A stretch of 25,564 nt of DNA from a virus, in the IMG/VR virus record IMGVR_UViG_3300017732_000058, positions 1 through 25,564 of that record; one strand, given 5' to 3'. A program made the translations under genes and the position numbers. How positions within the stretch are numbered: the first letter of the stretch is position 1; every line of letters begins with the position of its first letter. Shown here one piece after another: positions 76 to 13,313 of this stretch. Under the pieces are notes generated by a model. The model searched no databases. It worked only from the letters and a program-made list of their open reading frames with translations, and was not told the origin of the DNA.

Positions 76-501
76 ATGATTAAACTATCAAAACTTATCA
101 AAGAAAGTTATGCCTGGGAACGTAAAGATGATGGATCTTTACCTACATTATCCGACGCTATTCAATCACATCAAAAATCATTGTCAGAAGTTGCTTCTAT
201 AAAAATAGGAGACAATCAATATACAGTTCGTGCTGCAAATAATGGTGTAAATGTACAAGGCGGTAATGTAAATAATAATTACAATATAAAAGTAGATGGT
301 TTTATAGACATACCAGTAGATATAAAAGACGTATCATTGTCAGGAGGCAATGTAAAAATAAAAGCATCAGCAATGGGTATGGAAAAAGAAGGCATGTTGC
401 CAATACAACAAATAGCTAGAATTATTGATAACATAGAAGCTGGCAAAAAAGAATTTATGATTGACGGGGACGAAAATACATTTATATTCACTCAAGCGTA
501 A
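76..501 (+). CDS. putative internal head protein with N-terminal capsid-targeting tag
   Basis: A 141-residue protein that begins MIKLSKLIKE, the variant tag of the cassette, with I-K-E at residues 8-10 as the possible prohead-protease site. The tag runs into a Y-A-W-E-R-K segment (12-17). The remainder is predicted mostly beta, with N-rich repeats around residues 55-70 and no motif I recognise. It is the first gene after the ATATTTAT element and is 8 bases from the next tagged gene, so it heads an apparent operon. The packaging role is inferred from the shared N-terminus by analogy with T4 internal proteins; the body of the protein is unknown. Confidence 0.75.
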   Translation: MIKLSKLIKESYAWERKDDGSLPTLSDAIQSHQKSLSEVASIKIGDNQYTVRAANNGVNVQGGNVNNNYNIKVDGFIDIPVDIKDVSLSGGNVKIKASAMGMEKEGMLPIQQIARIIDNIEAGKKEFMIDGDENTFIFTQA

Positions 502-509
502 GGAAAATC

Positions 510-1022
510 ATGATTAAATTAAAATCACTACTATCAGAAAAATTTCTTGGATTTGGCTTTGGAGCTGGTAAAGTTAAAGAACAACAATTACCTGATGCAT
601 CTGCAACAGATATAATGCAAGGATTAGATAGAGATCCAGCAACTGGTAATTTACGGGATACAAAAGAATTTACATTAGATCAATTGAAATTTGATTTGTT
701 AGTAAAAACATTTCCTAGGAATTATAATCAAGTTCATTTCACAAGAATGCAACCAGATGGCAAAGAAGGCCCATATTATAAAGATGCTGTAACGTTTCCT
801 AATCCAAACGACGCATCTTCTGTTATAGGAGATATGGAATCATTAGAAGATTGGAAAGACCAAACAAAAAGAAGATTTGGTAATGTTAAAATAATATTAA
901 ACCCTGACGCAAAAGAAAGTTGGGAAAACGTTAAAATTGAAGATGATAAATTCACTCAAGATAAACAAGATGCAGACTCTGCAAAAATGGATATGTTAAA
1001 ACAATGGGGAACCACAACATGA
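510..1022 (+). CDS. putative internal head protein with capsid-targeting tag
   Basis: A 170-residue protein that begins MIKLKSLLSE with L-S-E at residues 8-10. Its first ~25 residues closely resemble those of the protein at 1897: both run S/T-E-K-F/Y-L-G-F-G and then reach a short E-Q-Q segment near residue 24. The rest is unrelated, so the two look like one targeting leader attached to different cargo. The body is charged, with no membrane segment and no family I recognise. An AAGGAAAA ribosome binding site lies upstream, and its end overlaps the next small gene by 4 bases. Confidence 0.75.
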   Translation: MIKLKSLLSEKFLGFGFGAGKVKEQQLPDASATDIMQGLDRDPATGNLRDTKEFTLDQLKFDLLVKTFPRNYNQVHFTRMQPDGKEGPYYKDAVTFPNPNDASSVIGDMESLEDWKDQTKRRFGNVKIILNPDAKESWENVKIEDDKFTQDKQDADSAKMDMLKQWGTTT

Positions 1023-1183
1023 ATTGGATAAATAGCTGGAAAGCATACAATAAAAAAAGAGTATTTGAAGTTAATATTAGATTAGGTAAACTAACATTGC
1101 TAGAACTTAATTATTGTCCCTGTGATAAAGAAGGATGTATTAGATTTAAAATAATGATTTTAAACTTTGGTGTTGAAATTTGA
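1019..1183 (+). CDS. 54-residue cysteine-containing microprotein
   Basis: ATG at 1019 overlaps the previous stop in an ATGA. The 54-codon frame ends at TGA 1181-1183, which overlaps the TTG start of the next tagged gene. The protein has a compact Y-C-P-C-D-K-E-G-C segment at about residues 32-40, which could bind metal, and no head-targeting tag. Overlap at both ends is the usual sign of translational coupling in this phage and supports it as a gene. Function unknown. Confidence 0.5.
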   Translation: MNWINSWKAYNKKRVFEVNIRLGKLTLLELNYCPCDKEGCIRFKIMILNFGVEI

Positions 1184-1695
1184 TTAAACTCAAAGATATA
1201 TTAGAACAATCTATAGGATTCCAAGTTCCGGGGACTCCTAAACAAAAAAATATTGGACGACAAACACGTCAGGAATTTGCTAAGTTTTTCAATAATTTTG
1301 AAGCAGGTAATACAAAAACTGCTATATCAAATTATGCTGAACAAATAATGAATTCAGATGCACCTGACGATATAAAGAAAAAAGTATCTGAAATATTAAA
1401 TGAAATGGAGACAGTAGCAATTGATATTCAAGACGAATTGCATACAAGACAAATAAGCGACGATGCTGTTGCTGAAAAGTTATTTGATTATGTAAACTCA
1501 GAAATGGACTCATCAGATTCTATAGAGTTTGAACAATTGTTATGGTACGACAATCAAATTGATATGAGTATCAAATCCGGCATGATTGAAAATGCTGTTG
1601 CTATAATGGGTCAGTTATTACAACAACTAGAATTCATACGTGGTTTTATTTTACAAGAATTCCCTGAAATCTCTACTATAGGATTTAAAAGGTAA
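1180..1695 (+). CDS. putative internal head protein with capsid-targeting tag, TTG start
   Basis: A 171-residue protein. The start codon is TTG at 1180, chosen because it restores the family leader MIKLKDILE, with I-L-E at residues 7-9 as the candidate cleavage tripeptide. The rest is predicted to be almost entirely alpha-helical and acidic, ending in G-F-K-R. The rare start may lower translation, or it may rely on coupling to the preceding gene, whose TGA stop at 1181 overlaps this start. No recognised domain. The head-cargo role is inferred from the tag. Confidence 0.75.
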   Translation: MIKLKDILEQSIGFQVPGTPKQKNIGRQTRQEFAKFFNNFEAGNTKTAISNYAEQIMNSDAPDDIKKKVSEILNEMETVAIDIQDELHTRQISDDAVAEKLFDYVNSEMDSSDSIEFEQLLWYDNQIDMSIKSGMIENAVAIMGQLLQQLEFIRGFILQEFPEISTIGFKR

Positions 1696-1728
1696 AATAA
1701 AACAAAACTAATCTAGAAATATATCAGT

Positions 1729-1869
1729 ATGAAACATACGCAATTTCAAACTATCCGTACGTACATTCGATGTGGTAAATGTAATTATAAATGGTATGTA
1801 CAAGGACTTTTTGTTAAATATATATGTCCTAAATGTAAACATGAAGATTCATCAATGAAATCATTATGA
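1729..1869 (+). CDS. 46-residue zinc-ribbon microprotein
   Basis: ATG 1729 to TGA 1867-1869 encodes 46 residues with two C-x2-C knuckles (C15/C18 and C33/C36) separated by a hydrophobic and aromatic stretch, the layout of a minimal zinc ribbon. It lacks the head-targeting tag although it sits inside the tagged cassette. It could be a small nucleic-acid or protein binder. Function unknown. Confidence 0.6.
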   Translation: MKHTQFQTIRTYIRCGKCNYKWYVQGLFVKYICPKCKHEDSSMKSL

Positions 1870-1872
1870 CAT

Positions 1873-1880
1873 ATATTTAT
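1873..1880 (+). promoter_or_regulatory. ATATTTAT late-promoter-like element
   Basis: The octamer lies 16 bases before the ATG at 1897 and is followed by TTATAAAAGGA, which supplies the ribosome binding site. It follows directly after the stop of the zinc-ribbon gene, so it would start a second transcript inside the cassette. It matches the other elements in sequence and spacing. Confidence 0.5.
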
Positions 1881-1896
1881 TTATAAAAGGATTCTA

Positions 1897-2295
1897 ATGA
1901 TCAAATTAAAATCATTACTAACAGAAAAATATTTAGGTTTTGGTAATCAAGGAAGATTAAACGAACAGCAATCACAAATGGCTGATCAACTACTTGGATT
2001 TTTTAATGATGTAACTGGCGACTCTAATGATCCAGCTATTATAAATTGTGTAATTAAATGTATCAAAACTAAAATAATGAAAGATTTACCTAATATACAA
2101 GAACGTGATATTGATCAATTAATTGATGGATTAAAAGCAGGTCAACCTATTAAAGTAATACAAGCAATAAGTAAGTTTACAATTAACATAGGAAATTTAG
2201 CTGTATTTATTGAGGATATAATGGATCCAAATACATGTAAAGAATGTGAAGGACTACAAACAACACCTACGGGTGGAGCAGCAAAACCTATATAG
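1897..2295 (+). CDS. putative internal head protein with capsid-targeting tag
   Basis: A 132-residue protein that begins MIKLKSLLTE, with L-T-E at 8-10 and a second possible site L-N-E at 21-23. The leader is paralogous to that of the gene at 510. The mature part is helical with two cysteine pairs (C-V-I-K-C near 46-50 and C-K-E-C near 115-118) that could form disulphides or bind metal. It ends in a G/A/P-rich tail. RBS AAAGGA upstream; 8-base gap to the next tagged gene. Function of the body unknown. Confidence 0.75.
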   Translation: MIKLKSLLTEKYLGFGNQGRLNEQQSQMADQLLGFFNDVTGDSNDPAIINCVIKCIKTKIMKDLPNIQERDIDQLIDGLKAGQPIKVIQAISKFTINIGNLAVFIEDIMDPNTCKECEGLQTTPTGGAAKPI

Positions 2296-2303
2296 GAATA
2301 ATT

Positions 2304-3275
2304 ATGATTAAATTACAAGAATTATTACCACACCGTCAATTAAACGAATTAAGTTTAAAAAGTATGGGTAATCGTGTCAAAACTATTTTAAATAAAGTAG
2401 CAATAAAAAAAGGTAAAAAAGATGCAGAAGATTTACAACAATCAGATATAGCTGCGGCAGTACCTAGTACAAGTCTTAAAAAATATTTAGGACAATTAAA
2501 GGCAATTATATCTCCATTATATGCATTAGCAATTGCAGGAGATCAAGAGCAGACAGAAGCTTGTAGAGCAATTGCAATGGAAATGGGTATACTTAAGTTA
2601 TTAAAAGGATCTGCAGATTTTAATTCACCTGAAGGAAATTTTGCTAGTGATAAATATCATGCACAAAAGCTTGGATCGAGTGTAGAAGCTATAAAAGATC
2701 TTATGTATCGTATGCAACAAGACATGAAAAAAGAAGTTGCTAAACTTGATCCAGAAGGAGCTGCTTCATTTTCAGTTGAAGATGCAATTGAAATGTTATA
2801 TTTTAAATATAGTACCGAAAAAAGTGCATTAGTTACAGTTGCTAGAGGTATACAAAAAGTAGTAGGTGGATTTATGTTAGACGGAAGAATTTTTAGAGTT
2901 TTACAAAATCAATTAAGAAAAGCTTTTCCAGGAGAGTCTGGAAGATTATTAAATTCAGTAATGGCAGATTTTATAGGAAGTATTGCTGGTATTTCTGATG
3001 ATTATGGTGGTAAAGCATGCTCTGCATATTTTGATGGAATACGAAAACAAATAAATTACTATACTAGAGCATTTGGAGATCAAGGAGCTCCAAACGGAGG
3101 ATATGGAACATTTTGGAATGATGGAGATATAGATTGGAATATAAGAGTTAGATGTACACAAAATTGTGAAGCTTCTGGCGCTAGAAATTTATTACCATCT
3201 GATCAGATAGCTGATAGAAAAAAGAATTTAGGAATTGCAGATACAGGTAGAGTTAAACGTACGTATAGACAGTAA
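2304..3275 (+). CDS. large putative internal head protein with capsid-targeting tag
   Basis: A 323-residue protein, the largest tagged protein on the plus strand. The leader is MIKLQELL and the candidate cleavage tripeptide is slightly later, L-N-E at residues 13-15. A basic, helical N-terminal third is followed by a long helical region, then a C-terminal part rich in Gly, Asn, Tyr and Trp (about residues 240-300) with a C-x3-C pair near 284-288. It resembles no enzyme family I can name. TAGGA RBS upstream. By size it could be a major core or ejection protein; this is inference. Confidence 0.7.
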   Translation: MIKLQELLPHRQLNELSLKSMGNRVKTILNKVAIKKGKKDAEDLQQSDIAAAVPSTSLKKYLGQLKAIISPLYALAIAGDQEQTEACRAIAMEMGILKLLKGSADFNSPEGNFASDKYHAQKLGSSVEAIKDLMYRMQQDMKKEVAKLDPEGAASFSVEDAIEMLYFKYSTEKSALVTVARGIQKVVGGFMLDGRIFRVLQNQLRKAFPGESGRLLNSVMADFIGSIAGISDDYGGKACSAYFDGIRKQINYYTRAFGDQGAPNGGYGTFWNDGDIDWNIRVRCTQNCEASGARNLLPSDQIADRKKNLGIADTGRVKRTYRQ

Positions 3276-3283
3276 AATATAGT

Positions 3284-3796
3284 ATGATTAAACTAAAAGA
3301 CATAATATTAAATGAAGGCACTCGATGCTGGAAAGGATATGAAAAGAAGGGCATGAAAACAATGTTTGGAAAACGTGTTCCTAATTGTGTTAAGCGCGAA
3401 GCTAAATTACCAGATGAAGGGTTTTCAGATCCAGATCAAATGAGAATGTATAAAGATGAAAGCATTGCTCCTAATCATGACGGAAAAGCTGCTCCATATG
3501 GATCTGGATATGATCAAATTGAAGAAGAATTAGCTGAAATAGATGAAGATTTAAGAAATTGGGTAAAACAAAAATGGGTTAGGATGGGACCTGATGGTAA
3601 AATTAGAGGTTCATGTGGCGGAAGAAAAAAAGGAGAAGGTAAGCCTAAATGTTTACCATTAGCTAAAGCAAGAGCGATGGGTAAAAAGAAAAGAGCATCT
3701 GCAGCTAGAAGAAAAAGAAGAGAAGATCCAAATCCTGATAGAAGAGGTAAAGCTAAAAATGTAGCCACATCTCGTAAAAAGAAAAAGAAATCATGA
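3284..3796 (+). CDS. basic head-cargo protein, likely DNA-binding
   Basis: A 170-residue protein that begins MIKLKDIILNE (L-N-E at 9-11). Directly after the tag is a short cysteine module (G-T-R-C-W-K-G-Y ... P-N-C-V-K). The middle is acidic (E-E-E-L-A-E-I-D-E-D), then comes a W-V-R-M-G-P-D-G-K motif, a cysteine pair around G-S-C-G-G ... K-P-K-C-L-P, and a strongly Arg/Lys-rich tail ending in a run of lysines. Similar cysteine and basic segments are common in uncharacterised marine phage proteins. The basic tail suggests binding to packaged DNA. It overlaps the next gene by 4 bases. Confidence 0.75.
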   Translation: MIKLKDIILNEGTRCWKGYEKKGMKTMFGKRVPNCVKREAKLPDEGFSDPDQMRMYKDESIAPNHDGKAAPYGSGYDQIEEELAEIDEDLRNWVKQKWVRMGPDGKIRGSCGGRKKGEGKPKCLPLAKARAMGKKKRASAARRKRREDPNPDRRGKAKNVATSRKKKKKS

Positions 3797-4107
3797 TTAA
3801 GTTAAAAGATTTATTACCAGAAAAATTTGCGTCAAAAGCTCAACAAGGTTATATGTTTGCAACTGATAAAGAAGCAGCAGAAAAATTAGCTAGTAAAATG
3901 ACTAAAAAGGATTATGAAAATCTTCCTGACAAAGTAGACGAAGTTGAATTAGCTGAAAAAAAGAAAAAGAAAAAGAAAAAAGCAAAGCGTGATAAATGTT
4001 ATTACAAAGTAAAAGGACGTTATAAAGTTTGGCCTAGTGCATATGGTTCATTAGCATTATCTGCGTGTAGAAATGTTGGAGCAGCCAATTGGGGCAATAA
4101 AAGTTAA
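3793..4107 (+). CDS. basic head-cargo protein with polylysine linker
   Basis: A 104-residue protein that begins MIKLKDLLPE (L-P-E at 8-10). Next is a helical segment, then an E-K8-A-K-R polylysine stretch at about residues 55-67, then a C-terminal module with the pattern C-Y-x-K-V-K-x-R-Y-K-V-W-P-S-A-Y followed by C-R-x-V-G-A-x-N-W-G. That module is one I know as a widespread uncharacterised marine phage segment. The positive charge suggests nucleic-acid contact inside the head. The start overlaps the previous stop (ATGA). Confidence 0.75.
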   Translation: MIKLKDLLPEKFASKAQQGYMFATDKEAAEKLASKMTKKDYENLPDKVDEVELAEKKKKKKKKAKRDKCYYKVKGRYKVWPSAYGSLALSACRNVGAANWGNKS

Positions 4108-4121
4108 AGTAAATTAATTTC

Positions 4122-4487
4122 GTGATTAAACTTAAAAATATATTATTAGAAAAAGATCAAATAGTACAAACAGAAGATCCTAAAAAAATTAAAAAACTTA
4201 GAATTGTTTTTGCAAATGATACAAAAATTGAAAAAGCTTTATCTGGATTATTTGTACGATTAGGACTTGTTACAAAAACGTTTACCTCTATAGCAGATGC
4301 AATTAAATATGTTATGGAATTACGAGATCAAGGAGTTTCTGATTTAGAAGAATTGGTTATTGGATCTCATGGAACAAAAACAGGTACAAAATTAGTAGGC
4401 TCAGCTGCCAAAGATCAAACTGTTGGTAGAGATTTTGAATATGAAGATGGATCAAAAAATGGCATAATTATGACGAAGCTTTATTAA
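4122..4487 (+). CDS. caspase-like (clan CD-like) head-cargo protein, N-terminal half, GTG start
   Basis: The start is GTG at 4122, chosen because it restores the leader MIKLKNILLE (L-L-E at 8-10). The 121-residue frame contains a hydrophobic strand ending in the motif V-I-G-S-H-G at residues 79-84, which looks like the catalytic histidine strand of caspase/CHAT-type folds. The frame then stops at TAA 4485-4487 before any cysteine motif. The missing half is encoded in the -1 frame immediately downstream (next entry). The last ~8 residues after the A-run near 4454 are probably out of frame. The protease assignment comes from the H...C pattern only. Confidence 0.6.
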   Translation: MIKLKNILLEKDQIVQTEDPKKIKKLRIVFANDTKIEKALSGLFVRLGLVTKTFTSIADAIKYVMELRDQGVSDLEELVIGSHGTKTGTKLVGSAAKDQTVGRDFEYEDGSKNGIIMTKLY

Positions 4488-4774
4488 TAGCATGTAAAGA
4501 TTTAATTAACTCTTCTACTAATGTATTTTTTACTGCATGCTATGGTGCAGATCAACTTAATATTTTAGTACATGCTGCTAATGTATTAGGAGTTACCGTA
4601 TATGGTGCAGCTGGAGTTAGTGCTCCTGGATTAAATAGAATATTAAATAAATTCTCTAAAAAGATTTTTAAATGTAATCCTGCTCAAGAAGGATTAACAA
4701 ATGATATGTATTTAAATCAAAAAATATGTTCTAACACAAATTCACCAATTCGATGGTTGCGAGTAAAAGCATGA
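4445..4774 (+). pseudogene. C-terminal half of the caspase-like cargo gene, in the -1 frame
   Basis: The -1 frame relative to 4122 is open from 4445 to TGA 4772-4774. It encodes W-H-N-Y-D-E-A-L-L, a hydrophobic strand and then F-F-T-A-C-Y-G-A, matching the catalytic cysteine strand that follows the S-H-G strand in caspase-like folds. Joining the frames at the six-A run 4454-4459 gives about 217 residues with H83 and C140. The joined gene ends with an ATGA overlap on the next tagged start at 4771, as intact neighbours do. It is either a one-base homopolymer error, a real mutation, or a programmed -1 shift at A-AAA-AAT. Confidence 0.6.
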
Positions 4775-5046
4775 TAAAATTAGAATCTATATTAAAAAGC
4801 ATTCCAAATCAAAAAATAATTGAAACAGATTTAGGTCAATGGGAATATCCTGGAAGAATAACAAGAATACCTAGTAATAGTATAACAATGGAACCAGATC
4901 CAAGAACAGGTAAGCCTATACAACATATATTATTGATAATTGGAGATCAAAGTGGAGAAAAAAAGATAGGAATACCAGGAGGACCTGAACTATATTTTCC
5001 AAATGATAAAACAGTTACAGAATATCCTATTAAAAAATATCCGTAA
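4771..5046 (+). CDS. putative internal head protein with capsid-targeting tag
   Basis: The start is placed at ATG 4771, not at the upstream in-frame ATG 4753, because 4771 gives the family leader MIKLESIL and a 4-base ATGA overlap with the -1 frame of the upstream gene. The protein is 91 residues; its first L/I-x-E is I-I-E at 16-18, later than in its relatives. The body looks like a small beta domain rich in Ile, Pro and Gly. It is the last tagged gene of the plus-strand cassette. Function unknown. Confidence 0.65.
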   Translation: MIKLESILKSIPNQKIIETDLGQWEYPGRITRIPSNSITMEPDPRTGKPIQHILLIIGDQSGEKKIGIPGGPELYFPNDKTVTEYPIKKYP

Positions 5047-5072: not shown

Positions 5073-5249
5073 ATGAAAAATATTAATGAATGGACAGATA
5101 GAAGTTTTAAAAATCAACCAAAGCGATGGTCTAAAAACGGAAAAGATTCAGACGGATTAACTGAATTTGAAAGAAAAAATGTTGAAAAAGAAGAATCAGT
5201 ATTTAAAAAACAAATGAGACGATTTAAAACTAAGAACATGAAATGGTAG
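5073..5249 (+). CDS. 58-residue basic hypothetical protein
   Basis: ATG 5073 to TAG 5247-5249 encodes 58 residues starting M-K-N-I-N-E-W and ending in a lysine/arginine-rich stretch (K-K-Q-M-R-R-F-K-T-K). It is highly charged, without hydrophobic segments. It follows an AAGGA ribosome binding site and an ATATTTAT element, and overlaps the next gene by 7 bases. Function unknown; a nucleic-acid role is possible from its charge. Confidence 0.6.
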   Translation: MKNINEWTDRSFKNQPKRWSKNGKDSDGLTEFERKNVEKEESVFKKQMRRFKTKNMKW

Positions 5250-9631: not shown

Positions 9632-10045
9632 ATGACACATTTTAAAGAAACATTATTACTCAATGATTTCGATTTAGTTTGGAAAAACTTTTTCGATCAA
9701 ACATCTAAATTTTTACCAGTAACATCAAATAAAATGAATTATCCAGTTGATATATTTACAACTGATAGTGGTATACAATTTGAAATTGCTGCAGTAGGTT
9801 TAGAAAAATCAGATATTGAAATATCAACAGAAGGAGAAACTTTAAGAGTTCGATATGACAAAGGTAAAGAAGAAAAGCGTGAATTTATTCACAAAGGTAT
9901 CGCTAAAAGAGCTTTTGATTTTGCTTGGAAAATATCTAAAGAATTAGATTTAACTAAAGCAGGAGCAAAAATGGAAAAAGGATTATTAGCAATTGATATT
10001 CCATATGCTAAAGATAGAGCACCAAAGCGATTAATAATTAAATAA
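9632..10045 (+). CDS. hsp20: Hsp20 / alpha-crystallin small heat shock protein
   Basis: A 137-residue ATP-independent holdase chaperone. The N-terminal arm (about 1-35) is followed by an alpha-crystallin domain (about 38-135) with Y-P-V-D-I-F, the strand F-E-I-A-A-V-G-L-E-K-S-D-I-E-I, and the family signature K-G-L-L-A-I-D-I-P near the end. Hsp20 genes are a regular feature of marine T4-like phages and are thought to assist head or tail assembly. Length is typical for the phage type. It has a perfect AGGAGG site and its own leader. Assignment is confident; the client proteins are unknown. Confidence 0.88.
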   Translation: MTHFKETLLLNDFDLVWKNFFDQTSKFLPVTSNKMNYPVDIFTTDSGIQFEIAAVGLEKSDIEISTEGETLRVRYDKGKEEKREFIHKGIAKRAFDFAWKISKELDLTKAGAKMEKGLLAIDIPYAKDRAPKRLIIK

Positions 10046-10760: not shown

Positions 10761-11249
10761 ATGAATAAAATAATAATATTATTATTTATATTGTTAATCG
10801 GAATGAGGTCTATTCCAGAAAATAAATCTGAATTTTGTATACCAATTGAAATTGAAAATTATCATGTAAAAATTAAAAATAAAGAAATACAAGATAATAA
10901 ACTAATTGAAGCATTAATTCAAGTTGAAAGTAGAGGAAATGATAGTTGTATAGGTGATAGGCATTTAATACTTCCATCCATAGGATGTTTACAAATTAGA
11001 CCAGTAATGGTAAGAGAAGTTAATAGAATATTAAAGAAACAAAAGGATACACTGCGATTTAAATATAAAGATAGATGGAGTAGAAAAAAATCTATTCAAA
11101 TGTTTTATATTTGGAAAGACTTTCATCATACAAATTCTTCTGATGAGAAAATAGCAAGAAATTGGAATGGAGGACCTAAAGGTTATAAACGTAAACGTAC
11201 TTTACAATATTGGGAAAAAGTAAAAATAGAAATGAATAAAAAACTTTAA
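10761..11249 (+). CDS. transglycosylase-type endolysin with signal peptide
   Basis: A 162-residue protein. Residues 3-15 form a hydrophobic signal or anchor segment. The catalytic-type region has L-I-E-A-L-I-Q-V-E-S-R-G with the likely catalytic Glu56, then G-C-L-Q-I-R-P (about 75-81), and a conserved R-N-W-N-G-G-P-K-G-Y near residue 135. These are the SLT lysozyme-like fold motifs seen in endolysins of Bacteroidota phages. It probably cleaves peptidoglycan glycan strands at lysis. Its neighbour is a lipoprotein gene with an NlpC/P60-like fold, suggesting a lysis or envelope cluster. No separate holin is evident. Confidence 0.78.
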   Translation: MNKIIILLFILLIGMRSIPENKSEFCIPIEIENYHVKIKNKEIQDNKLIEALIQVESRGNDSCIGDRHLILPSIGCLQIRPVMVREVNRILKKQKDTLRFKYKDRWSRKKSIQMFYIWKDFHHTNSSDEKIARNWNGGPKGYKRKRTLQYWEKVKIEMNKKL

Positions 11250-11256
11250 CTAAAGG

Positions 11257-11285
11257 TTGGATTTTTCATGTATAATTCTTATTAT
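11257..11285 (+). promoter_or_regulatory. sigma-70-like promoter of the broken lipoprotein gene
   Basis: TTGGAT at 11257-11262, a 17-base spacer, then TATTAT at 11280-11285, 13 bases before ATG 11299. It shares an exact 20-mer and the same spacing with the promoter at 7474-7502, so the two lipoprotein-type genes are probably co-regulated. Confidence 0.6.
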
Positions 11286-11298
11286 AAAGAAAAAAGAT

Positions 11299-11961
11299 AT
11301 GAAGAAAGTAATTTATTTATTAGTAATTGGATTTTTAGGAATAAATTAAATTAGTTGTACTCAAAATGATAGCACAAGAGTTTTACCAGAAGATCAAGAA
11401 ATATATTCACCTGCAAATGGAGATGTTATATTTCATACATCAAAAAGTTCTCAAAGTCCAATAATACAAAAAATTACTAATTCAAATTTAAGTCATTGTG
11501 GAATTGTTTATATTAAAAATGGAGTTCCTTATGTTTTTGAAGCATCTAGCAAAGTAAAATTAACTAAACTTCAAACATTTATTAATAATGGAGTAGATAA
11601 AAAATATGAAGTATTAAGACATACAGGAGGATTATCTCAATCTGAATTAAAGAAAATGTTTGCATATGCTCAAGATCAAATAGGAAAATCATATGATGTA
11701 AAATTCGAATGGTCAGATGATAAAATATATTGTTCTGAATTAGTTTGGAAAATATATAGTTCAGCTGGTATTGAATTATCTTCGCCAACTAAATTTGCAG
11801 ATTATGATTTATCTTCTAAAGAAGCTATTAAATTAATTGAAACAAGATATAATACAAAAATTAATTTAAATGAAGATGTTGTGACTCCTGTACAGATATA
11901 TCAAGATCAAGATTTACAAATAATATATCAAAACTATAGAAATAAATTATATGCTTTTTAA
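11299..11961 (+). pseudogene. YiiX/YebB-like (NlpC/P60 fold) lipoprotein interrupted by a stop in its lipobox
   Basis: ATG 11299 opens a signal peptide (M-K-K-V-I-Y-L-L-V-I-G-F-L-G-I-N) that meets TAA at 11347-11349 (codon 17). The same frame then continues I-S-C and stays open to 11961, 220 residues in all. TTA (Leu) in place of TAA would give a perfect L-I-S-C lipobox. Catalytic-type residues of the permuted NlpC/P60 family are present: L-S-H-C-G-I-V (H66) and Y-C-S-E-L-V-W (C145). No good start exists between the stop and M120, past the histidine. It is a recent nonsense mutation, a sequence error, or readthrough. Confidence 0.7.
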
Positions 11962-13313
11962 GCACTTCCGATTGTAACAACATTAGGAGAGTCAGAAACA
12001 GCTTTGAAATTTGCATTAATATTTGGAAAACATGATCCTTGTAATCCAGGAATTTTTCCAGCTATCATTGTATCTACCATAAACGTTGCACAATTAGATC
12101 CTCCGCCCGTTCCAATATCAACTAAAGTATATTCACGCGTTGTAAAACTATTAATAAACTGTAATCCGGTTTTATAATCGTAACCTCTTACTAATACTCC
12201 TTGCATTGGTAACTTAGGACCTTTGCCTTGTGAATTAGATTTGACACGTTTTAATACAGAGTCAAAATTAGTTATTTCGCCATTTTCAATTCTAGCAATT
12301 CTACCTAAAGATTTCTTTTGTACAACTCCATACCCGGCAACTGCATCAGCTGGTATATCATCTATAGTAACAGGTCGACCTTCTTTTTCTTGAAAAGCTT
12401 TCGCAAATTTTCGTCCTTCTGGTTGAGTTAAAAACCATTTTTTGCCATCTTGCATAGATTTACCAGACGTATATCTTCCAAATTCTGCTAAATATACATT
12501 TCCAGCTGGATCAATAATAGCTATTCCTCCATGCCCTTGTGGACCTAGAGTTCCTGATTTAAAATCATCTCCATAAATTGTTTTTCCTATAGTATTATAT
12601 ATTTTATCAACGTCAAATACTTTCATACCTTGTTTTACAGATGCAGGTAACGAAGGTTGATATGTAGGCCAACTTAAACCAATTGCCCATCCGGTATCAG
12701 ATAATGATTTTGGATCTTTTAGTGTTTTTAAATGATAATTTAATTTATTTTTTATTGTTTGATCTAAAATTCCTAATTCTCCGTCAATAATAGCTTGTAT
12801 AGATGTATATCCTTTCAACCAATCACTATTAACTCTAGAACCATCTGATAATGTTATCATACTATTAGGAGGATATCGATCGTATAATTTTTGATTACTT
12901 TGTAAAACTTTATTTATTTGATTTAATATATTTTTATCTTTAATATTTTTTACTACTTTAAAAAATCCAACTTCATTAGTTCCTGTTCCGCGCGTTGTTT
13001 TATGTAAAGCTTCAATATATTGTTTTGTTATATTAACTTTTGGAGATGATGTTAACTTTGTTTGTAACATACTATAAGTATTTTTTCCTACAATTCCATC
13101 TGCAGATAACTTATTGTCTTTTTGAAATTTTTGTACTGCAACTTTTGTACCAGAACCAAATATTCCATCTGCAGAAGAATTTCCGCTAGCTAACTTAGAT
13201 GGAAGATATTTTAATTGAATTAATTGTTTTTGTAATTTTTTAACTTGTTCTCCACGACTACCTTTACGGAGCACAGTAGTTTGTTCTTGTAATAAATATT
13301 TTAATTTAATCAT
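11958..13313 (-). CDS. head-cargo lysin: capsid-targeting tag, peptidoglycan-binding domain, cysteine-peptidase-like domain
   Basis: A 451-residue protein, the only minus-strand gene here. It begins MIKLKYLLQE (L-Q-E at 8-10), the same leader as the cassette. Residues ~13-87 are a PG_binding_1 domain (two repeats ending A-D-G-I-F-G and A-D-G-I-V-G). Residues ~95-200 contain T-R-G-T-G-T-N-E-V, an annexin-like pattern also seen in other phage proteins. The C-terminal part has G-H-G-G-I-A-I-I (H261), then G-S-N-C-A-T-F (C408), an H-then-C order like permuted papain/NlpC folds. A packaged, wall-acting protein is inferred. It overlaps the upstream plus gene tail-to-tail by 4 bases. Confidence 0.72.
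   Translation of the reverse strand: MIKLKYLLQEQTTVLRKGSRGEQVKKLQKQLIQLKYLPSKLASGNSSADGIFGSGTKVAVQKFQKDNKLSADGIVGKNTYSMLQTKLTSSPKVNITKQYIEALHKTTRGTGTNEVGFFKVVKNIKDKNILNQINKVLQSNQKLYDRYPPNSMITLSDGSRVNSDWLKGYTSIQAIIDGELGILDQTIKNKLNYHLKTLKDPKSLSDTGWAIGLSWPTYQPSLPASVKQGMKVFDVDKIYNTIGKTIYGDDFKSGTLGPQGHGGIAIIDPAGNVYLAEFGRYTSGKSMQDGKKWFLTQPEGRKFAKAFQEKEGRPVTIDDIPADAVAGYGVVQKKSLGRIARIENGEITNFDSVLKRVKSNSQGKGPKLPMQGVLVRGYDYKTGLQFINSFTTREYTLVDIGTGGGSNCATFMVDTMIAGKIPGLQGSCFPNINANFKAVSDSPNVVTIGSA

Follow-up and report, generated by a model that had tools for sequence, protein, structure and literature searches.

Why do many neighbouring genes of one phage begin with the same short peptide, and what does that peptide do? 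The question is raised by a 25,564-base IMG/VR fragment from an uncultured T4-like phage (IMGVR_UViG_3300017732_000058; the whole stretch is hereafter the window), which carries baseplate genes of gp25- and gp6-type PHROGs. Ten of its open reading frames (ORFs), named below by their start positions, begin with MIKLxx[LI][LI]: a consecutive run of nine on the plus strand (positions 76 to 5046) and a single minus-strand ORF (13313 to 11958). All ten had been listed in an earlier sequence-only reading and were located in the window. That reading had also put an [LI]-x-E triplet mostly at residues 8-10 and at the latest at 16-18, which proved accurate: the triplet is present by residue 18 in 10 of 10 ORFs and lies at exactly 8-10 in six. 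The glutamate is E9 in 1180 (ILE), E10 in 76 (IKE), 510 (LSE), 1897 (LTE), 3793 (LPE), 4122 (LLE) and 13313 (LQE), E11 in 3284 (LNE), E15 in 2304 (LNE) and E18 in 4771 (IIE). The start codon is ATG except in 1180 (TTG) and 4122 (GTG); the TTG of 1180 is kept in three relatives, with ATG at the same place in a fourth, and the start of 4771 is an internal ATG of a longer ORF that begins at 4753. IKL occupies residues 2-4 in 10 of the 37 window ORFs (P ~4 × 10−24 from residue composition), and 2000 residue shuffles of the window ORFs never gave more than one IKL start, so that a chance origin of the leader in the window is excluded. We consider it highly probable that this leader, with the consensus MIKLKD[IL]LxE, is a signal for capsid targeting and processing of the T4 type.

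A database search for further leader proteins, as the sequence-only reading had proposed, found the same leader in at least 120 IMG/VR stretches, many of them with 2-6 different leader ORFs side by side. The search used a degenerate DNA pattern for MIKLKx[IL]LxE and, as control, the same codons permuted; both yielded at least 120 stretches, 120 of each were compared by locus content, and the later counts are taken from the matches listed. We identified 218 MIKLxx[LI][LIV] starts in 1.09 Mb of the 120 leader loci vs. 2 in 1.02 Mb of the 120 control loci; for leaders not chosen by the pattern, the counts are 90 and 2 (Fisher P = 7 × 10−21). Removal of the tag left 237 leader proteins that fall into about 130 families, including 89 singletons. 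Alignment of 127 family representatives, which were picked by positions 1-8 and partly by E10, shows that M1, K3 and L4 are invariant and that I2 and E10 are conserved in at least 90%, with nothing else in common (mean column identity 4%); positions 7, 8 and 10 each carry 3.3-3.6 bits of information (3.5 at position 10), position 9 at most 0.8, and the positions after 10 about 0.6 or less. Because of this selection, the unbiased figure for E10 comes from the non-pattern-selected leaders recognised by residues 1-8 only, where E stands at residue 10 in 65 of 89. The leader is mostly 9-11 residues long and closes with [LI]-x-E. The leader set includes at least one false positive, L068:2847, which starts inside a ribonucleotide reductase. 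The further claim that the window proteins diverge completely after the tag stood for most of them and failed for two pairs: 510 and 1897 have a second piece in common (EK[FY]LGFG..G), and 3284 and 3793 correspond to separate parts of a single protein in a relative.

Shared N-termini could also result from recent duplication of a DNA segment, or from a translation-start element, with no function at the level of the protein. Around the starts, the window DNA has short stretches that match each other at 83-100%, and the genes are arranged in tandem, with another leader ORF within 60 nucleotides for 134 of 255 leader ORFs. However, synonymous codons are free where the residues hold: among 247 leaders, L4 is encoded by all six Leu codons, I2 by all three Ile codons, and K3 by both Lys codons. 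Start codons and upstream DNA vary as well, and no obvious common element was seen in the 30 nucleotides upstream of the window leader genes. The constraint therefore acts on the peptide, not on the DNA. Moreover, the same tag stands on 127 unrelated families in many phages, and in orthologous pairs [LI]xE persists despite shifts in x and position (IIE and IVE for 4771, LNE and LDE for 3284, ILE9 and LIE10 for 1180). Codon variation largely refutes this explanation, to which we assign a nearly negligible probability.

The predicted cut site is kept within proteins, too. Homologous modules retain [LIV]-x-E immediately upstream regardless of the preceding domain, as seen in comparison with, among others, the closest relative, G001, a 75.7-kb contig with nine leader ORFs and 73% identity in the 2304 protein. 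With a slash for the predicted cut, LLE/KDQIVQTED (window 4122, L272) corresponds to KLTE/KDQIVQTED after a zinc-ribbon-like module (L271), LNE/Q..YPSAQAA (G001 8477, L271) to KLTE/Q..YPSAQAA (L273), ILNE/GTRCWKG (window 3284) to DSLNE/KGTRCWKG within L107 and L013, and LLE/QQLPDAS (G001) to KVKE/QQLPDAS (window 510). For the CWxGY..VPNCV module, [LIV]xE ends at most four residues before the module in 15 of 15 contexts found, which are not 15 independent cases because several are orthologues. Such conservation at junctions is the trace that a processed site would be expected to leave, and suggests that cleavage of a polyprotein gives rise to some of the cargo.

The location of leader genes in the head module is more telling than the frequency of the gp21-type protease, Peptidase_S77. 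In 6 of the 11 head modules sampled, the interval from gp21 to gp22/gp23 contains leader or leader-like ORFs, with the tags MIKLKDILKE in L259, MIKLRHLVEN in L261, MKLKDILNE and MKLKAIIQE in L265, MKKLKTLLSE in L266, and MIKLKDILLE and MANIKLKDLLNE in L268, and with five leader ORFs in a row in L269; L264 has one leader ORF after gp23. The gp23 arms of 12 leader phages, all relatives of the window, which itself has no gp23, keep [LMI]LE/NQA and [LIV]xE/[AST], the latter at a place that we take to match the LTE/A site of T4 gp23. The same locations could mean that tagged proteins are mainly components of the prohead core or scaffold, in which case the tag would build the core, the protease would destroy it, and the fragments would exit before DNA packaging, with no effectors delivered. 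The presence of leader genes between gp21 and gp22 in several head modules fits this alternative, as do the small size and charge of some leader proteins and the fragmentation by gp21 of gp22, gp67 and gp68, all proteins of the T4 core (PMC9026906, PMC5694885). Many cargoes, however, are intact enzymes, often of known effector or counter-defence families, the turnover of families is rapid (the 130 families with 89 singletons), and most arrays were found outside the head module. We therefore regard a predominant core or scaffold role as improbable; some leader proteins may be prohead-core components that are degraded rather than delivered.

Alternatively, the tag might direct proteins to another structure or compartment, such as the baseplate, tail or membrane, with [LI]xE merely part of an amphipathic helix. 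The leader could form such a helix, and in the window and in its relative tail and baseplate genes are found close to the array. However, a helix does not require a position as sharply defined as E10 flanked by free residues 9 and 11, internal [LIV]xE at module junctions occurs without the rest of the tag, leaders lie between gp21 and gp22, and each of the seven cultured phages examined, which have related arrays or cargo, encodes S77. We consider targeting to another structure very unlikely.

The capsid-targeting reading, which the sequence-only reading had put forward together with cleavage, withstood every test applied and gains support from Peptidase_S77 and gp23 in the closest relative, from E10 in the unselected leaders, from leader genes between gp21 and gp22/gp23, and from the match to the T4 capsid-targeting sequence (CTS) described below. 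Under the proposed mechanism, residues 2-8 of the tag would bind the prohead core, so that any tagged protein would be co-assembled into the prohead; a gp21-type Peptidase_S77 would cut after the E of [LIV]-x-E and release the cargo within the maturing head; and the released cargo would be packaged alongside the genome, with most members ejected into the host, where they would modify host targets or block defence. In the MIKL clade, the tag would be the swappable front end for a large, fast-changing cargo set, whose genes stand in tandem and some of whose members contain several modules and internal sites for the cut. Recognition by the prohead core is suggested by T4 and by the head-module location, and the S77 cut after [LIV]xE by positional conservation, the gp23 sites and the junctions. 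Packing in the head and delivery with the DNA would follow the T4 precedent, with indirect support for packaging from a tagged array of Agrobacterium phage Atu_ph07 that lies in a cluster rich in virion proteins detected by mass spectrometry; ejection and action in the host are extrapolated from T4 and from the cargo domains. Because the same tag stands on more than 100 unrelated families, the label probably loads a swappable head arsenal for delivery, and it is likely that most tagged cargo is delivered.

Several results weigh against this reading. The 25.5-kb window, a fragment without head genes, gave no S77 match for the gp21-like protease, whose absence from the genome the sequence-only reading had named as a refutation; the nearest relative, G001, does encode Peptidase_S77 (gp21-type, E = 3.6 × 10−34) and gp23 (E = 1.9 × 10−76), which speaks for the reading. 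Among the 28 leader contigs of at least 40 kb, S77 and gp23 both occur in the same 12, that is, S77 in 12 of 12 contigs with gp23, which is ordinary T4-like synteny and no proof of function. An association of leaders with S77 by presence was dropped as evidence (12 of 28 leader contigs vs. 3 of 14 long control contigs, P = 0.31). The leaders on head-module genes are as compatible with a prohead-core role as with a cargo role. Near-complete contigs have about five leaders (G018) and about two (G016), showing that large leader arsenals are not universal. Finally, neither virion proteomics nor N-terminal data for a MIKL-tagged phage were found in the literature.

Most leader cargo is unannotated. 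At curated Pfam cut-offs, no domain was found in 9 of the 10 window cargoes, 13313 alone having domains. Domains identified in cargo include ADPrib_exo_Tox (L056), ART-PolyVal (L067), NUDIX, RimK-type ATP-grasp and Zeta_toxin and, across all representatives, also GNAT, M23, lysozyme, RNase_T and HD. The L191 protein, with the tag MIKLLDLLFE in a control locus, is just above the cut-off for Acb1, which counters the cyclic-oligonucleotide-based antiphage signalling system (anti-CBASS; 27.6 vs. 27 bits). T4 Alt is a head-packed ADP-ribosyltransferase (ART) and, by analogy, the obvious functional precedent. AlphaFold2 models of the cargo homologues G001 7704 and 8477 were unusable (predicted local distance difference test 52.8 and 46.1), and Foldseek with the 7704 model, at 52.8, gave generic alpha/beta matches only.

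The plus-strand array begins with 76..501 (141 residues, MIKLSKLIKE/S), whose body motif YAWER..LPTL is found also in leader proteins of other phages (tblastn to L082), followed by 510..1022 (170 residues, MIKLKSLLSE/K), with the second site KVKE/QQLPDAS and the relative G001 4423 (MIKLKDLLE/QQLPDAS). Next are 1180..1695 (TTG start, 171 residues, MIKLKDILE/Q; 84% identity to G001 6453, MIKLKDILIE/Q), 1897..2295 (132 residues, MIKLKSLLTE/K) and 2304..3275 (323 residues), which has LNE at 13-15 and whose relative at 73% identity, G001 5504, has LPE10 and LNE15. The two PHROG 727-like ORFs are 3284..3796 (170 residues, MIKLKDIILNE/GTRCWKG), which contains the CWxGY..VPNCV module, and 3793..4107 (104 residues, MIKLKDLLPE/K), which in relatives is fused to the 3284-type module. 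ORF 4122..4487 (GTG start, 121 residues, MIKLKNILLE/KDQIVQ) is truncated compared to intact homologues of 217-258 residues: the frame changes near codon 112, the remainder of the gene apparently lies downstream in another frame, and the change may reflect decay or an assembly error. The intact homologues (L272, L271, G001) contain VIGSHG...FFTACYGA, reminiscent of HG..AC peptidases; a clan CD-like HG..AC signature in this family is our guess from the motif. The last plus-strand member, 4771..5046 (91 residues), has IIE at 16-18 and 82% identity to G001 9480 (IVE at 16-18). A probable degenerate member follows at 5073..5249 (+; MKNINE/WTDRSF), with a homologue in L029 that has the full leader MIKLKQLLKE/WNDTSF (tblastn 57% over 35 residues, E = 1.7 × 10−6). 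The minus-strand ORF 11958..13313 (451 residues, MIKLKYLLQE/Q) has PG_binding_1 (PF01471, 9.9 × 10−18) and a TseH-like domain (PF25218, 1.2 × 10−10); it adjoins ORFs at 10761-11961 that by eye are lytic-transglycosylase-like and NlpC/P60-like, and together these may possibly form a cell-wall locus.

We made further observations around these genes. The large window ORF 5607-7469 matches the leaderless G001 10127 in its first half and has an internal LNE/QGG before its second half, at the place equivalent to which G001 10857 is a separate leader gene. The cargoes L271 3910-4917, L127 8477-9475 and L273 1140-2276 are conserved in the N-terminal half (..ALPIIGSIPGVKQ..), whereas the C-terminal half has been exchanged, a layout that resembles polymorphic toxins. 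A second recurring N-terminal motif, approximately LKx[LIY]P[NK]Q, occurs in window 4771 and 22960 and in G001 26002, 31836 and 73653, several phage proteins of which some are structural. Window 9632-10045 appears by eye to encode a small heat-shock (Hsp20-type) protein. Between gp21 and gp22, a small basic ORF of about 70-85 residues is found in L260, L266, L268, L269, G001 (54692-54928) and Microcystis phage Mel-JY01 (22183-22410), where it is annotated as ribosomal protein S21.

To our knowledge, cargo outside T-even phages has hardly been recognisable until now. In a text search of open-licence papers, so that a description elsewhere is possible, the tag strings were unmentioned and jumbo-phage reviews contained no shared leaders. 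Nor did we find an account of a near-invariant tag on more than 100 families, of arrays in which as many as ten tagged genes stand within 25 kb, of modules swapped at internal junction sites, or of parallel tag systems in cultured phages. More broadly, phages with S77-processed heads might in general use lineage-specific zip-code tags that co-evolve with the prohead core, making the head a vehicle for an open, exchangeable repertoire of hundreds of effector families (ADP-ribosyltransferases, kinase-like proteins, anti-CBASS enzymes, protein-modifying ligases and peptidoglycan hydrolases), several modules of which could be delivered as a single polyprotein after separation by the protease inside the head; we are evenly divided on whether this generalisation holds. 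If it does, the tag alone would mark injected effectors in metagenomes, akin to a secretion signal. With a pattern-searchable ten-residue tag, packed or injected phage proteins would become a sequence query, which already yields candidate effectors (the Acb1-like anti-CBASS protein and Alt-family ADP-ribosyltransferases). For many unannotated phage genes, the tag would predict where the product is located and how it is delivered; phage heads could be loaded with proteins by means of new tags, and first-minute counter-defence would appear as a large, quickly exchanged repertoire.

The T4 CTS, the closest known system, was reportedly described by Mullaney and Black in 1996. The first ten residues of T4 IPIII suffice for head targeting, which depends mainly on residues 4 and 7 of the CTS, with processing via residues 8 and 10; gp21 cuts C-terminal to L/I-x-E, and the CTS has already been proposed as a means for related phages to load various proteins (PMC9026906). 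In the T4 record, ipII and ipIII begin with MKTYQEFIAE/A, and ipI has a late site, ITE19. The conserved leader columns 4, 7, 8 and 10 (L4, [LI]7, [LIV]8, E10) and the late sites of 2304 and 4771 fit this map. Like IPI, IPII, IPIII and Alt of T4, the MIKL system places an N-terminal tag of about ten residues, with hydrophobic positions 4, 7 and 8, E10 and [LI]xE, on unrelated proteins, and the likeness extends to the occasional later site, the S77 protease (encoded in relatives of the window) and an Alt-family ADP-ribosyltransferase among the cargo. The tag itself differs (MKTYQEFIAE in T4, MIKLKDILxE here), as does the scale: T4 has four named CTS cargoes, whereas the window has ten tagged genes in 25 kb and the cargo of MIKL phages comprises at least 127 families. 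Unlike T4, MIKL phages have fused modules with [LIV]xE sites inside the protein, and for the MIKL system head packaging is a prediction. In phiKZ, 201phi2-1 and SPN3US, a diverged gp21-like protease likewise processes many different head proteins, here after x-E, and some of these are ejected; SPN3US propeptides, however, are often longer than 100 residues and are cut at S/A-x-E, with no shared ten-residue tag (PMC5694885, PMC9026906). MIKL leaders, mostly 9-11 residues long with [LI]-x-E, do not follow this phiKZ-type pattern of long propeptides and S/A-x-E.

Among cultured phages, a repeated-tag search in the isolates Mel-JY01 and immuto found no leader cluster. A looser pattern found MIKLIDLLTE in immuto and, in Mel-JY01 (gp21 54.6% identical), MIKLKSLLQE and MIKLMSLVTE on ART-like proteins (MIKL-tagged ORFs 60276-60926 and 62056-62718); in Mel-JY01, a homologue of the L056 ART that lacks the tag also lies between gp21 and gp22. 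Homologues of leader cargo (L279 2980-3642, L280 2977-3645, L283 3971-4552) have short LxE-ending tags in Pelagibacter phage HTVC008M (MIPFILKE/G), Methylophilales phage Melnitz (MKTFAELQE/G, which is similar to the tag of T4) and Vibrio phage K566 (..LAE/A). Alishewanella phage Slicko01, for which we found no proteomics in the literature, resembles the window in having eight consecutive tagged genes with several cargo types, one with a Pfam ART domain, and an S77 protease; its tag is different (MKI[DE]xLYESxLxE or near variants). Atu_ph07 has ten tandem genes (coding sequences, CDS, 53-62, numbered by order in the record) with one short LxE-ending tag, M[KR]WxQL[TN]E or near variants, and S77 in the genome. 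This array falls inside the cluster CDS 31-76, from which 29 proteins, counted cluster-wide and not per gene, were found in virions by electrospray ionisation tandem mass spectrometry (PMC6102473). Unlike the window, Atu_ph07 has another tag and cargo that by eye is ART-like (YRGM motif), and because the cargoes look like ART-type paralogues, the tag could be inherited with the gene. Taken together, the principle is known from T4, and the scale, the invariance of the tag and the module swapping are new.

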